Below, piece by piece: positions 1-34,718 of a stretch of 52,643 nt of DNA. Source of the stretch: a bacterium (GTDB lineage: Bacteria; Planctomycetota; Planctomycetia; Pirellulales; UBA1268). The position numbers and the translations under genes were made by a program. Location of the stretch: assembly GCA_029978085.1 (NCBI GenBank), contig JAPOJV010000004.1:1-52643 (forward strand), given 5' to 3'. The notes beneath the pieces are model-generated. The model was not told the origin of the DNA. It did not search any database and saw nothing but the letters and a program-made list of their open reading frames with translations. Position 1 is the stretch's first letter, and the number at the start of each line of letters is the position of its first letter.

Positions 1-966
1 TGCCCCGTGGAGCGTGGCCATCGTGAGGGTTGCGGCTGGGTTCGTGACGCCGGCATCGACGAGCGTGCGGCATTCGGCGAGGACGGAAAGATCGGGATTC
101 GACGCGCGGCTGTCGGTGCCGATGGCGACTCGCAGTCCCGCGTCGCGAAAGAGGGCGAGTGGCGGCAGGCAGCCGGAGATCGCGAGGGTGGTGCGCGGGC
201 AGATCGCGACGGCGAGCCGGTCGCGGTGGCGGGCGAGGCGGGCGAGGGCGATGGGATCACGATCGAGGTGGGTGCCGTGCACCACGATGCCGCGCGGGCC
301 GCGGGCCAGACACGAGATCCAGTCGGCGGTGGAGAGAAGGCGGGGCGGGGCGGCGGCGGGCCAGGCGCCCAGCGACTCGAGCAGTTCGCGGAACGGGCCG
401 GTGCCACCGGCGAGCAACATTTCTTCCTCTCGGCTCTCGGCCAGATGCATCGCCGCGGGCAGGCCGCGAGCACGGGCAGTCGCGAGTAGGCGACGGCCGA
501 GTGCAGAAGCAACTGAGTACGGTGCGTGCGGCGAGACGCCGGCGGGAACTCGCCGGAGCTGGAGCCGGTCGAGGTCGCGGATCGTCGCGGCAAATGCCGC
601 GGCGTTGGTGGCCGGTGACAGTCCGAGCGCCTCGCGGAACACCCGTACCCGCGGGCCCGGAGCTGCGTAGGCGTCGAGCGATGCGGCCGTGGCGATCTCA
701 CCGATCGCAGTCACTCCCGCGGCCGCGCTCTCCGCGCGGCCGCGGGCCACGGCGCCGGCGGTCTCGGCAGCGGCCGAGTCTGGAGGCCGCTGGCGGCGGA
801 GGGCGACGACACGACTGATCCAGGCAGGGAGGCCGCCATCTGCAGTGAGCGGCTGCGCGACCGTCGAGAACTCGAGGTGCGTGTGCGCGTTGACGAGCCC
901 GGGCAGGATGACCGCGTCGCCGAGATCGACGGTCGGCCCGGGTGGCCTGCCCTTGCCCACTGCCAC
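1..966 (-). CDS. Amidohydrolase (ATZ/TRZ, aminodeoxyfutalosine-deaminase-like), truncated by window start
   Basis: Not in ORF track because it runs off the edge. Minus-strand frame from GTG at 966 is open to position 1; contains PGLVNAHTHLEFS, MHLAESREEE and AIGTDSRASNPDLSVLAECRTL motifs; lies directly after mqnA-mqnC. Confidence 0.85.
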   Translation of the reverse strand, partial: MAVGKGRPPGPTVDLGDAVILPGLVNAHTHLEFSTVAQPLTADGGLPAWISRVVALRRQRPPDSAAAETAGAVARGRAESAAAGVTAIGEIATAASLDAYAAPGPRVRVFREALGLSPATNAAAFAATIRDLDRLQLRRVPAGVSPHAPYSVASALGRRLLATARARGLPAAMHLAESREEEMLLAGGTGPFRELLESLGAWPAAAPPRLLSTADWISCLARGPRGIVVHGTHLDRDPIALARLARHRDRLAVAICPRTTLAISGCLPPLALFRDAGLRVAIGTDSRASNPDLSVLAECRTLVDAGVTNPAATLTMATLHGA

Positions 967-1061
967 TACGCGGCCATGTTAAATCCGCAGCCAGCCGCCG
1001 TCGATCGGCGGGGCCGCGATCGGCACGAGATGCCGCGCCTGCAACGTGAGCGGCGCTGGCC

Positions 1062-2090
1062 TCACGGCGAGGTCGTCGCCACGGGCAGCTGGACGGCTCG
1101 GGCCCGACTTCGCTCCGGATCGACCGCCGGCGCGACGGGCTCGTCTTCGAACAGCTCGTAGAACACGTTGCGACGCCGCGGGATCCAGCCGAGTTCGGAG
1201 ATCGCCGACTTCATCTCGTCGAGCGTGAGGTGGTGCACGGTGCCGGCGGCGCTCACGACGTTCTCCTCGATCATGAGGCTGCCCATGTCGTTGGCGCCAA
1301 AGAGCAGGGCGAGCTGGCCGATCTCGCGGCCCTGCGTCACCCAGCTCGACTGGATGTTGGGGAAGTTGTCGAGGTAGAGGCGAGCGACGGCCTGGGTCTT
1401 CAGGTATTCGAAGGGGCCGGACGGCGGGATGTCGTCCATCTCGGTGTTGTCGGGCTGGAACGACCAGCAGATGAACGCCGTGAAGCCCCCGGTTTCGTCC
1501 TGCACCTGCCGCAGGCGATCGAGATGCTCGATCCGCTCCGCCAGCGTCTCGATATGGCCGAACATCATCGTGGCCGTGCTGCGGCCGCCGAGAAGGTGCC
1601 ACTGACGATGCACCTCCAGCCAGTCGTCGGTCATCACCTTGCCGCGGGTCATCGCCCCACGGACGCGGTCGACGAGGATTTCGCCGCCTCCGCCCGGCAG
1701 CGAGCCGAGGCCGGCCTGGGCGAGTCGCTCGAGCACCTCGCGGAGCGGCCGCTTCGAGACCTTCGTGAAGTGGTGGATCTCCGGCGGGGAGAATCCATGG
1801 ATGTTCACCGCTGGAAAGTGAGCCTTGATATCGCGGAGCAGCTCCTCGTACCACTCGAGCGTGAGCGTGGGGTGGAGGCCCCCCTGCATCAGGATCTGGT
1901 CGCCGCCGAGGGCCACCGTCTCCTCGATCTTTCGGAGGATCACGTCGCGGTCGAGGACGTAGCCTTCGGGATGCTTGGGGCCGCGGTAAAAGGCGCAGAA
2001 GTCGCAGACCGCCGTACAGATGTTCGTGTAGTTGATGTTGCGGTCGATGTTGTACGTGCGATAGGGCTCGGGATGGAGCCGGCGGGTCAC
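1062..2090 (-). CDS. mqnC: Cyclic dehypoxanthinyl futalosine synthase (radical SAM); coding homology extends upstream to ATG 2234 but is interrupted by TAA at 2121-2123
   Basis: YNIDRNINYTNICTAVCDFCAFYRGPKH radical-SAM CxxxCxxC motif, GGDQILMQGGLHP, adjacent to mqnA. Upstream in-frame peptide MSTANVIADTGIAAILDDVVAGGRLGFDDAVRLLESR*LASIGRAADA. Confidence 0.9.
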   Translation of the reverse strand: MTRRLHPEPYRTYNIDRNINYTNICTAVCDFCAFYRGPKHPEGYVLDRDVILRKIEETVALGGDQILMQGGLHPTLTLEWYEELLRDIKAHFPAVNIHGFSPPEIHHFTKVSKRPLREVLERLAQAGLGSLPGGGGEILVDRVRGAMTRGKVMTDDWLEVHRQWHLLGGRSTATMMFGHIETLAERIEHLDRLRQVQDETGGFTAFICWSFQPDNTEMDDIPPSGPFEYLKTQAVARLYLDNFPNIQSSWVTQGREIGQLALLFGANDMGSLMIEENVVSAAGTVHHLTLDEMKSAISELGWIPRRRNVFYELFEDEPVAPAVDPERSRARAVQLPVATTSP

Positions 2091-2230
2091 CGCGTCGGCC
2101 GCACGTCCGATCGACGCCAGTTACCGCGACTCGAGCAGCCGCACGGCATCGTCGAATCCGAGCCGGCCACCGGCCACCACGTCGTCGAGAATGGCGGCGA
2201 TCCCGGTGTCTGCGATCACGTTGGCCGTGC

Positions 2231-3109
2231 TCATGAATGATTGCTCCAGTGCGGTGTCGCGGTGAACGGAGGACGGCTCGTCGCACGCCCGCCGGGAGCG
2301 AGGCCGAGGCGGGCCGCATGCTCGCGAAAGAGTTCCAAGGCCTCACGTTCACGGACGCCCAGATGATAGTGCAGGTTGTCGCGGAGGTAACCCAGGCACT
2401 GCGGTACGGTGAGCCCATGGCCGGCCGCCTCGACCGCGGCGATGGCCGCGAGATTGGCCCGGCCGGAGTCGCGGGCCGCAGCCAGCAGCGGCTCGATCGC
2501 CGTCGCGTCGACGCCAGCCCGTGCGGCCCAGACGGCGAACACGAACGGCAGGCCCGTCCACCGGCACCATTCGTCACCGAGATCCCACACCAGCTGAAAT
2601 GAGCCACTGATCGATCCCAGCGCCCGGTCGCCGATCACGAGCACCGCGTCGGCCCGCGTGTCGCCCGGACCGGCGCCGATCGGCAGGGTCTCCGTCGTCG
2701 GCCGCACGCCATGCCGTTCGGCCAGAAGGATGCGGGCCAGCGTCGCGCTCGTCCGCGATCCTTCGTCGGTTGCCAGCGTCGTCACCCGGTCGGGCGCGGT
2801 ACGAAACAGCAGTTTCACGCTCATCACCGGCCCGCGGCAGCCGATGCAGGCGTCGGAAACGACGCGGTACCGGTCACCCCGAAAGAGCTCGATCGACGGA
2901 ATCAGAGCCACGTCGAGATCCCCCGCCGCGAGCCTGTCAGCCAGGCGGCTCGGGAGATCGTAGTGCACCGCCACCCCCGCCGCCGCGAGCCCGTGCACCA
3001 ACGGCCGCGTGTTGAGGTACTGCACAGCCCCGATCCGCAGGGGGCGATCCGGCCGGACTTCACCGGGAGAACCACACTCGGTCGCTGGGGGGGAAGGCTG
3101 GTCGATCAT
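2231..3109 (-). CDS. mqnA: Chorismate dehydratase (menaquinone biosynthesis, futalosine pathway)
   Basis: RIGAVQYLNTRPLVHGL, DVALIPSIELFRG, VSDACIGCRGPVMSVKL, LATDEGSRTSATLARILL motifs; start chosen at the internal ATG (3109). Stop overlaps the mqnC ATG (ATGA). Confidence 0.88.
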   Translation of the reverse strand: MIDQPSPPATECGSPGEVRPDRPLRIGAVQYLNTRPLVHGLAAAGVAVHYDLPSRLADRLAAGDLDVALIPSIELFRGDRYRVVSDACIGCRGPVMSVKLLFRTAPDRVTTLATDEGSRTSATLARILLAERHGVRPTTETLPIGAGPGDTRADAVLVIGDRALGSISGSFQLVWDLGDEWCRWTGLPFVFAVWAARAGVDATAIEPLLAAARDSGRANLAAIAAVEAAGHGLTVPQCLGYLRDNLHYHLGVREREALELFREHAARLGLAPGGRATSRPPFTATPHWSNHS

Positions 3110-3119
3110 CTGTTGGAGC

Positions 3120-3255
3120 GGCAGCACCCCGCGCGGATGCTGCCGAACAAGAGGGTAACCGCAGCCCCGCCCGCCGGGTAACCCCACGTGCCGGCTCCTC
3201 TCTTCTGCTGCGGAAGAGACGGCCGTGAGGGGCTGCCCGTGCCCCAGGAGCCGGC
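3120..3255 (-). other. Dyad-rich mqnA leader: start-proximal hairpin plus three-way-junction-like structure (candidate structured RNA)
   Basis: Hairpin GGCAGCA(3120-3126)/TGCTGCC(3138-3144); outer stem GCCGGCTCCT(3190-3199)/AGGAGCCGGC(3246-3255) enclosing CTCTTC(3200-3205)/GAAGAG(3213-3218) and GGGGC(3229-3233)/GCCCC(3241-3245). Confidence 0.5.
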
Positions 3256-3461
3256 GTTTGCTGACCAGCGCAGCCAGGATGGCGAAGCGCAGGCAGCATC
3301 GAGCGAGCGAAGGCATGGATGCCGTAGCGAGCGTCCGGTGACGGGGCATGGGCAGCCCCGAACTCACACCACAGGAGGTCGCCCCACGGAGGAATAGACG
3401 GGCCTGCGGTGTTCAGACCGGGGGCCGCACACGGAGTGTGCGGACTACGGCGCGAACGACG

Positions 3462-6897: not shown

Positions 6898-7147
6898 GTT
6901 GCGTCGGGCCGAAAGCGGCTCTGGCCGGGGAGAGCGGAAACATGCGTCCTCCCCGCTTTCTCAGTGTAGCCGCTCGTGCCCGGGGGCGAAAAGCGATCGG
7001 TCACCGAAATCTCATTTGCCGGCCCTTGACGCCCCGCATAGACTCATCCGCCGGAGTGGTTGTTTCAGTTGAATCAGCCTGCCGGGGATATTCTTTTTCG
7101 TTCACGTGCATCTCAACTCCTGGCTTCGATTGTCTCGCGAGCGCGTC

Positions 7148-11427: not shown

Positions 11428-13695
11428 TCACGTCAGCCTGCGCCACGCCGTCATTTCCGCGATCGTGTGCTGGTGCTTGCGGGCCGTCTCCCGGATCACG
11501 AACGGAATGTCACCGCGTGACACCAACGCGAACCGCGGGGTCAGGCAGCGTTCCAGTCCCGTGAACGTCGTCAGCGGCTCGCCATGCTCCCGACGTCCCC
11601 CGAGCCACTTGTCCTTGGGAGTGTATTCCTCGAGCCACGTGTAGGGAGACGTGATCACGAGCAGGCCCCCGGGCAGGATCCGGTCGGCAATCTCCCGGAG
11701 AAACAGCGAGGGATCGTAGAGACGGTCGATGAGGTTGCCGGCGAACACGAGGTCATAGCCAGCGTAGATCGCCTTGAGGTTGCAGGCGTCGCCCTGCATG
11801 AAGAGCACGCGGGAGCCGATGTCACCGAGGCCGAGCCGCTCGAGCGAGATCGCCCGCGGGACCGTGAGCTCGCCCTCGGTCGGAATTTCGTAGTGCAGCT
11901 CGTCCCCCTGCTGGAGCCGCACGCCCGACTGGATGAACCGGGCTGAGAAGTCGATCGCGTCGACATGGGCGAAGTGGCGGGCGAACTCGAACGCGGAGCG
12001 GCCGACAGAGCAGCCGATGTCGAGGCACTTGCCCCGACGATCCGCAGGCACGTGTGGCATCGTGGCCGCCACGCAGGCCTGCGGGAAGTTGGCCACGCCG
12101 AGCACGCTGCCGCGGTTCGCAGCGTCGCCGCCGGAAGCGGCATCGAACCCTCCGGAAGCGGCGTCACCATAGTGGAAATCGAGATACTGCGTCACGAGTT
12201 GATCGGTCTCGTAGAGCCGCGAGCCGGCCGTAACCGCCTCGTTGCCCGGCTCCTCGACGATCGTGCGGAAGCCCGCGTGCTGGAAGAAGTGCCGTCGAAA
12301 GGCATAGCGGGCGCTGGCGAGCGCCTCGTTGCCGGTCGAGATCCAGGAGCCTCCCTTGATCAGATTGTGGCGGCCGTCGAACGTGGGCACAGAGAAGTCG
12401 TCGTAGAGCGGGTGGATCTCGAAACCCTTGAAGGGCATGATCGGCGTGCGGGTCCACTGCCAGACGTTGCCCACGACGTCACAGAACTCGCCCTGTGGAA
12501 AGGCGTCGACGGGGCAGCTCGACGCGAAGTGCTCGAGATTGAGATTGCCGGGAGCGCGGTCCCACGACGGGTGGTCGCCCGGCACCTCGTCGCGGAGCGC
12601 CTGCCAATGGGCCTCGGTTGGCAAGAGCACGTTCTCGCCCGTCCGCTTGGCCAGCCAGGTGCAGTAGGCCTGGGCCTCCAGACAGTTGACCTCGACCGGC
12701 CAATCGAGCGGCAGGGGCCGCTCGTCGAGCAGGTTCCGCTGCCAGTAGCCGTCGGCGCGGCTGAGCCAGAACTTGGGATGCTCGGCCCGCGTGTAGTGGA
12801 GCCAGCCGCGGCCCTCCTCGGTCCAGAGCGACTCGTCGCGATACCCGCCGGCAGTCACGAACTCCAGGAACTCGGCGTTGGAGACGAGCCGCTTCCCCGC
12901 GCGAAACGGAGGCAGGGCCGCGTCCTCGTGTCCGTATTCGTTGTCCCAGCCGTAGGTGTGATCGTCGGCCCGCTTGCCGAGCCGCACGGTCCGGCCGGCG
13001 ACGGGGAGCCAGTCATTCGCCGGCGGAGTGCCCGTCGTCGTGCAGGCCGCCCAGAGTCGCCGCTCCTCGGCGGTGAGTTCGTCGCCATGACGCAGTTCGT
13101 CGAGCGGCATCTGCCGCATGATCACGCTCGATGTCTCGAGGTGGATCCGCTCGTGCTCGATGCCCATCAGGATCACCCAGGCGGGCGAGTCCTGACGGAT
13201 CGGCAGTTCGAGCGGCATCGACTGGATGAACCCATCGACGAGCTCCCGCAGCGCGGCTCGGTAGTCGCGAACCGTGCGAACGCTCGGCCAGTCGTAGTGG
13301 GCCGTGTTGAGATCGTCCCACGACATCTCGTCGACGCCCACGGCCATCATGGCCTCGAGCACGGCATCGAGCCGCCGGGGAATCAGCCGACCGGCCGTGA
13401 GCTTGTTGACATAGAACACCGCCGGATGGGCGAAGTAGAAGATCAGCGGGTGGCGGAGCGGTTCGTGCCGCTCGTAGTAGGAGGCGTCGTCACGGATCAG
13501 ATCGAAGAGCCGCTCGTAGATCGCACAGGTCTGATGGAAATAGCGGCGGATCTCGGCCCGCTTTGCGGCGACCGGATCGGCCGCCGCAGGATCGGCGGTG
13601 AGCAGCACCGTGTGGGTCGGGGCCAGTGCCGCCTCGAATTCGGCGAATCGGCTGGAGGGGGCGCGGACGGGCGACGTGGCGACAGGGGGCTTCAT
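11428..13695 (-). CDS. ovoA: 5-histidylcysteine sulfoxide synthase / 4-mercaptohistidine N-methyltransferase (ovothiol biosynthesis)
   Basis: DinB-like region with GIEHERIHLETSSVIMRQMP, FGE-sulfatase-like VVGNVWQWTRTP...GGSWIS, C-terminal SAM methyltransferase LDIGCSVGRSAFEFARHF. Confidence 0.88.
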   Translation of the reverse strand: MKPPVATSPVRAPSSRFAEFEAALAPTHTVLLTADPAAADPVAAKRAEIRRYFHQTCAIYERLFDLIRDDASYYERHEPLRHPLIFYFAHPAVFYVNKLTAGRLIPRRLDAVLEAMMAVGVDEMSWDDLNTAHYDWPSVRTVRDYRAALRELVDGFIQSMPLELPIRQDSPAWVILMGIEHERIHLETSSVIMRQMPLDELRHGDELTAEERRLWAACTTTGTPPANDWLPVAGRTVRLGKRADDHTYGWDNEYGHEDAALPPFRAGKRLVSNAEFLEFVTAGGYRDESLWTEEGRGWLHYTRAEHPKFWLSRADGYWQRNLLDERPLPLDWPVEVNCLEAQAYCTWLAKRTGENVLLPTEAHWQALRDEVPGDHPSWDRAPGNLNLEHFASSCPVDAFPQGEFCDVVGNVWQWTRTPIMPFKGFEIHPLYDDFSVPTFDGRHNLIKGGSWISTGNEALASARYAFRRHFFQHAGFRTIVEEPGNEAVTAGSRLYETDQLVTQYLDFHYGDAASGGFDAASGGDAANRGSVLGVANFPQACVAATMPHVPADRRGKCLDIGCSVGRSAFEFARHFAHVDAIDFSARFIQSGVRLQQGDELHYEIPTEGELTVPRAISLERLGLGDIGSRVLFMQGDACNLKAIYAGYDLVFAGNLIDRLYDPSLFLREIADRILPGGLLVITSPYTWLEEYTPKDKWLGGRREHGEPLTTFTGLERCLTPRFALVSRGDIPFVIRETARKHQHTIAEMTAWRRLT

Positions 13696-13719
13696 GCAGC
13701 TCCTCACGACTCAGAAACC

Positions 13720-29061: not shown

Positions 29062-29252
29062 GGAAGCCCGCGGCGCTTCTTGGAAGCCCGAGGCGATTCC
29101 GGGAAGCCCGCGGCGCGAGCCAAGGGAATACGCGTCGTTTCACGTGAGCCCGCGCCCACACCCTCGGCTCGCGCCACGGGCTTCCAGGCAGGCGGGTACG
29201 CCGGACGCAGATGGCGTCGTCTCACCTGACACCACGTCCACACCCTCGGCTC
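29062..29252. repeat. REP-like inverted/direct repeats, RAYT 3' side
   Basis: GGAAGCCCG at 29062, 29082, 29102; GGAAGCCCGCGGCGCGAGCC(29102-)...GGCTCGCGCCACGGGCTTCC(29166-29185); 46-nt unit shared with 29895-29940 (2 mismatches). Confidence 0.85.
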
Positions 29253-29874: not shown

Positions 29875-29981
29875 GGAAGCCCGCAGCTTTGCTTGGAAGC
29901 CCGAGGCGCGAGCCAAGGGAATACGCGTCGTTTCACCTGACACCACATCCACACCCTCGGCTCGCGCCACGGGCTTTCAAG
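29875..29981. repeat. REP-like inverted repeat, RAYT 5' side
   Basis: GGAAGCCCGAGGCGCGAGCCAAGGGAATACGCGTCGTTTCACCTGA (29895-29940) ... GGCTCGCGCCACGGGCTTTC (29959-). Confidence 0.85.
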
Positions 29982-30065
29982 CAGTGGCTACGCTGAAGGT
30001 AGCGGGGCGGGTGGAGCGTAGCGGGTGCACGTGAGCCGCCGCAGGCATGAGCGGCGCCGCTGTGG

Positions 30066-31787: not shown

Positions 31788-34718
<2,931 letters not shown>

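Follow-up and report, generated by a model that had tools for sequence, protein, structure and literature searches.

In the futalosine pathway, a deaminase acts ahead of MqnB, the futalosine hydrolase, whose step is in turn followed by that of MqnC, the cyclic dehypoxanthinyl futalosine synthase. Among the five Planctomycetes proteomes surveyed previously, MqnA, MqnC, and MqnD were found in all, the quinone was menaquinone, and MenF and MenB were both lacking (PMC3914697). With futalosine genes in the place of MenF and MenB being the rule in the surveyed Planctomycetes, the fixed loss of such a gene should be costly and would merit notice. Here, we analyzed a window of 52,643 nucleotides from an uncultured planctomycete, this being the whole stretch of DNA under study and the entire contig C77, which is one of 263 contigs in a genome whose fragmentation, among other signs, suggests a draft metagenome bin. 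Within the window lies an intact mqnA gene (2231–3109, minus strand; 186 bits to PF02621), for which the start codon is our own choice. Upstream of it, at 3222–3458, is a dispersed repeat of about 140–230 bases that recurs in dozens of copies (approximately 77–95% identity) in genomes of the same genus. Shorter repeats at 29080–29195 and 29879–29989 have many matches on both strands in the genomes of relatives, and a gene at 11428–13710 (minus strand) encodes a fusion of DinB_2, FGE-sulfatase, and methyltransferase domains with an OvoA-like (ovothiol) or EgtB/EgtD-like architecture.

Next to mqnA on the minus strand is mqnC (1062–2234; 390 codons plus stop), whose ATG at 2234 shares an ATGA overlap with the mqnA stop. 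From this ATG, the frame runs for 37 sense codons to a TAA at 2121–2123 (codon 38), and is then open to the TGA at 1062, so the N-terminal helical region is not spanned by a single uninterrupted frame. When read through with an X at the stop, the 390-residue product scores 486 bits against TIGR03699 (cut-off 428), matches both PF04055 (Radical_SAM) and PF19288 (CofH_C), and carries the CxxxCxxC radical-SAM motif as CTAVCDFC. As the TIGR03699 match already begins at residue 24, upstream of the TAA, the interruption does not come from a misread start. The preliminary description had already reported that mqnC, though otherwise intact, has an in-frame TAA in its conserved N-terminal region, and we can confirm this, along with the frame and coordinates. 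The first in-frame ATG, GTG, or TTG past the TAA is a GTG at 2088–2090 (codon 49), 30 nucleotides downstream.

To see what relatives carry at codon 38, we turned to the alignment of MqnC homologs. The nearest relative by whole-genome search (G010), with an MqnC protein that is 94% identical, has GAA (Glu) at this codon, with an unbroken run of 22 identical residues leading up to it and another of at least 19 following it; elsewhere in the genus and order, GAC, GAT, or GAG predominates. In fact, the alignable homologs, 102 in number, all read sense at position 38, as Asp in 77 and Glu in 10 (together 87), and a stop occurs there in none of them. The TAA thus does interrupt a conserved region, as had been proposed. 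On the other hand, had natural MqnC proteins started near GTG 2090, the interruption would have been only apparent; since all 102 homologs both read sense at position 38 and keep the N-terminal region, and since near-invariant residues precede codon 49, we reject this GTG, at which the ORF track begins the gene, as the natural start.

A second in-frame TAA, missed in the preliminary account of the operon, was found in the adjacent gene. This gene (1–1065, minus strand) overlaps the mqnC stop through a GTGA, comprises the N-terminal 355 codons of a PF01979 amidohydrolase, and continues intact in a further contig of the bin (C206). Its TAA at 979–981 (minus strand) takes the place of codon 29, which is GAT in the closest relative and GAG or CGN in many others. 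The best NCBIfam match, PRK08418 of the aminofutalosine deaminase family, stays below its cut-off (109.6 bits against 320), though the query is cut at the C-terminal end, and we base our assignment as an aminofutalosine-deaminase-like (MqnF-like) enzyme on the operon position and the presence of mqnB. Relatives likewise have this amidohydrolase gene following mqnC. The two TAA codons, then, are separated by 1.14 kb and belong to neighboring genes of a single operon, both within the first 2.2 kb of the contig, and each falls in the first 10% of its gene (9.7% and 7.0%, respectively). Moreover, the two interrupted genes probably act in a single pathway, one before and the other after the MqnB step. 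Elsewhere in the bin are mqnB (above cut-off), a second VitK2_biosynth gene (mqnD), and an mqnE-like gene, and none of these or mqnA has an internal stop. A second intact mqnC was not found in the bin, the other match being a 38%-identical relative in contig C235 that is probably mqnE, and neither was an alternative intact path for the amidohydrolase, for which there is only C206 as the continuation.

We then looked for interruptions of this kind in other genes. A homology scan of 117 kb, with 116 gene-sized matches to four relatives, gave only two true interruptions, and these were the two operon TAAs; two further hits were put down to shadow frames on visual inspection. Scanned in the same way, G010 (101 kb) and a second relative, G018 (132 kb), had none that we took to be true, with shadow frames again set aside on visual inspection. 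Using coding potential over 244 kb, three sites were flagged besides mqnC, namely a GcvP/KefB boundary at 31790, an RpoB/RpoC-like boundary (in L051), and a weak site (in L049). Candidates in the window at 6963, 20578, 21166, 34856, and 36913 were judged to be upstream-of-start or shadow-frame matches, and an apparent third interruption near 5654 of C206 precedes the start of a hisG-like gene and falls within a hisE-like reading frame.

Except for the stops, both genes look well preserved. Compared with G010, from which the split corresponds to a dS of about 0.5, dN/dS is 0.049 for mqnC, 0.116 for mqnA, and 0.160 for the amidohydrolase, which is similar to the neighboring genes. The window genome (G000) has one lineage-specific amino-acid change in mqnC and none at the 155 near-invariant sites, with no invariant-site change in the amidohydrolase either. 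For mqnC, there are 1008 possible missense changes at invariant sites versus 98 that make stops, i.e., about ten times as many. Given so little decay, the stops must be either much younger than the G010 split or not real. Of what defines a pseudogene, we find the disabling mutation relative to intact orthologs, but not the relaxed selection or accumulated damage.

Our favored reading, to which we assign a probability of roughly 0.5, is that the nonsense allele is genuine and that at least some cells of a mixed population have it. In mqnC of the assembled haplotype, GAA (Glu38) would most simply have become TAA through a single, very recent G-to-T change, and the TAA of the adjoining amidohydrolase gene would be young as well. 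Translation from ATG 2234 would then stop after 37 residues, and the haplotype would yield little or no normal MqnC and similarly little of the aminofutalosine-deaminase-like enzyme. By a calculation made after the fact, the chance of two events in 117 kb falling in adjacent genes is about 2%; this, together with the pairing in one pathway and the placement of both stops so early in their genes, mildly favors real alleles, as after-the-fact figures go. A genome of the same genus (G013, 93% complete) gave no match to mqnA or mqnD (PF02621) or to mqnC or mqnE, and while incompleteness or misassignment could account for this, it hints that the pathway may be lost in the genus, which agrees with real alleles. 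Against them is that mqnA, mqnB, mqnD, and the mqnE-like gene are all intact, such that fixed loss would come at a cost. Neutral decay and random error are both opposed by the lack of missense changes at the 155 near-invariant sites, even though these were some tenfold more available than stops.

The strongest competitor is a consensus artefact, whether from base errors or a chimeric path, with the organism itself having sense codons at both positions, and we regard this as a serious possibility that nonetheless falls short of probable. The first 141 bases of the window (1–141; L225 7161–7301) are identical to the last 141 of C206, the contig in which the amidohydrolase gene is completed and in which miaA-, hisE-, and hisG-like ORFs are also located. 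Among the sampled contigs, with 64 ends tested, C77 and C206 are the sole pair that overlaps in this way. No matching contig end was found for the right end of the window, and the identical ends of C1 and C100 turned out to be masked N runs rather than a repeat. De Bruijn assemblers halt at ambiguity and leave overlaps of k-mer length, and local assembly errors do occur in draft metagenome genomes (PMC7111523). An exact overlap of 141 bases, resembling a de Bruijn k-mer node, therefore points to an assembly branch, with the graph broken inside the amidohydrolase gene and sequence variants probably present at the locus. Such a branch is compatible both with a mixture of strains in which the nonsense alleles are real and with a chimeric consensus. 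That the stops are close to such a break in one of the 263 contigs, and in genes otherwise under purifying selection, is in keeping with an artefact. However, a break of the overlap type speaks against a simple end of coverage, and an edge effect should not extend 2.1 kb inward. Moreover, the clean remainder of the 117 kb indicates that the assembly is not generally error-prone, and it would be unlikely by chance for 1.1 kb to acquire two independent nonsense errors while the near-invariant mqnC sites show no missense at all.

Alternatively, the stops may be real but tolerated, with translation restarting at an in-frame GTG to give shortened active enzymes. This overlaps with the presence of genuine nonsense alleles and differs in its outcome, and we deem it unlikely. 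Gene overlaps of the ATGA and GTGA type, by which the mqn genes are joined here, are an arrangement with known translational coupling or restart. An in-frame GTG also lies a short way past each early stop, at 30 nucleotides in mqnC and at 12 or 18 in the amidohydrolase, and the 342-residue ORF from GTG 2090 still scores 465 bits as MqnC, above the TIGR03699 cut-off, and keeps the CxxxCxxC core. Rescue by reinitiation at this GTG, as raised in the preliminary description, is in this sense possible, and yet there is no clear ribosome-binding site before it. Furthermore, residues 16–46 of MqnC include near-invariant positions, and those before residue 49 are G22, R24, L33, L39, G43, A45, and A46 in the homolog alignment. 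In the predicted fold (mean pLDDT of 83, and confident over the N-terminal region), residues 16–46 make up two helices and the greater part of a third, all confidently predicted (block pLDDT of 95–98), and a start at residue 49 would remove or truncate them. Position 38 is located just before a predicted helix, which fits its preference for Asp, Glu, Asn, and Ser, and it may serve as a helix cap. The predicted model also aligns with MqnE over 363–369 columns, so the match reaches beyond the core. Lastly, the region before the stop is undecayed and thus gives no sign of long-term life without the N-terminus. It is more improbable still, in our estimation, that both TAAs are real and tolerated or even favored, with the operon being expressed through stop-and-restart or with menaquinone synthesis having just been switched off, as perhaps in G013.

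As for decoding, at least six conserved genes of the sampled sequence have TAA as their terminator at a point where the relatives also stop, by TAA, TAG, or TGA. The genome has two full-length PF00472 release-factor genes, and among the 39 tRNAs found there is no suppressor with a UUA, CUA, or UCA anticodon, though one could be missed in a bin that is 97.7% complete. Readthrough or recoding of TAA to give full-length MqnC, which might be read into a frame that is open and conserved on either side of the codon and into two such codons in one operon, is accordingly very improbable, considering also that the 117 kb scanned has no other internal TAA and that no relative has a stop at codon 38. Of the options listed in the preliminary description, sequencing error and a nonsense allele are thus among the live readings, whereas stop-codon readthrough is disfavored by every test we ran.

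Taken as a whole, the case is an ordinary one, in which a gene was either broken recently or assembled wrongly and no new mode of decoding is at work. Real alleles would mean that a planctomycete has been caught at the first step of losing its usual quinone pathway, in two genes of that pathway, and quinone dependence would become testable in this group. If they are an artefact, the locus would serve to illustrate how the consensus of a metagenome can give an important gene a broken appearance.

Compared with known systems, the locus resembles stop-codon reassignment or suppression in having an in-frame stop inside a conserved gene, but differs in that TAA terminates other genes, release-factor genes are present, and a suppressor tRNA was not found. 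As with consensus errors and strain-mixture artefacts in metagenome-assembled genomes, the bin is fragmented and an exact, k-mer-like overlap is close to the stops, but the locus is set apart by the 117 kb scanned in the bin, which have no other interruption of this sort. Among MqnC proteins (TIGR03699), the read-through product is a typical member, with a score above cut-off, the radical-SAM and CofH_C domains, an adjoining mqnA, and approximately 70–94% identity to Pirellulales homologs; in contrast to every homolog examined, the gene has a TAA at codon 38. There is also a likeness to recent nonsense alleles or young pseudogenes of bacterial genomes, given the single interruption, the otherwise intact frame, and a nearest relative that is one base from the stop, with the difference that here two adjacent genes would be affected, both near the start, if the alleles are indeed real.
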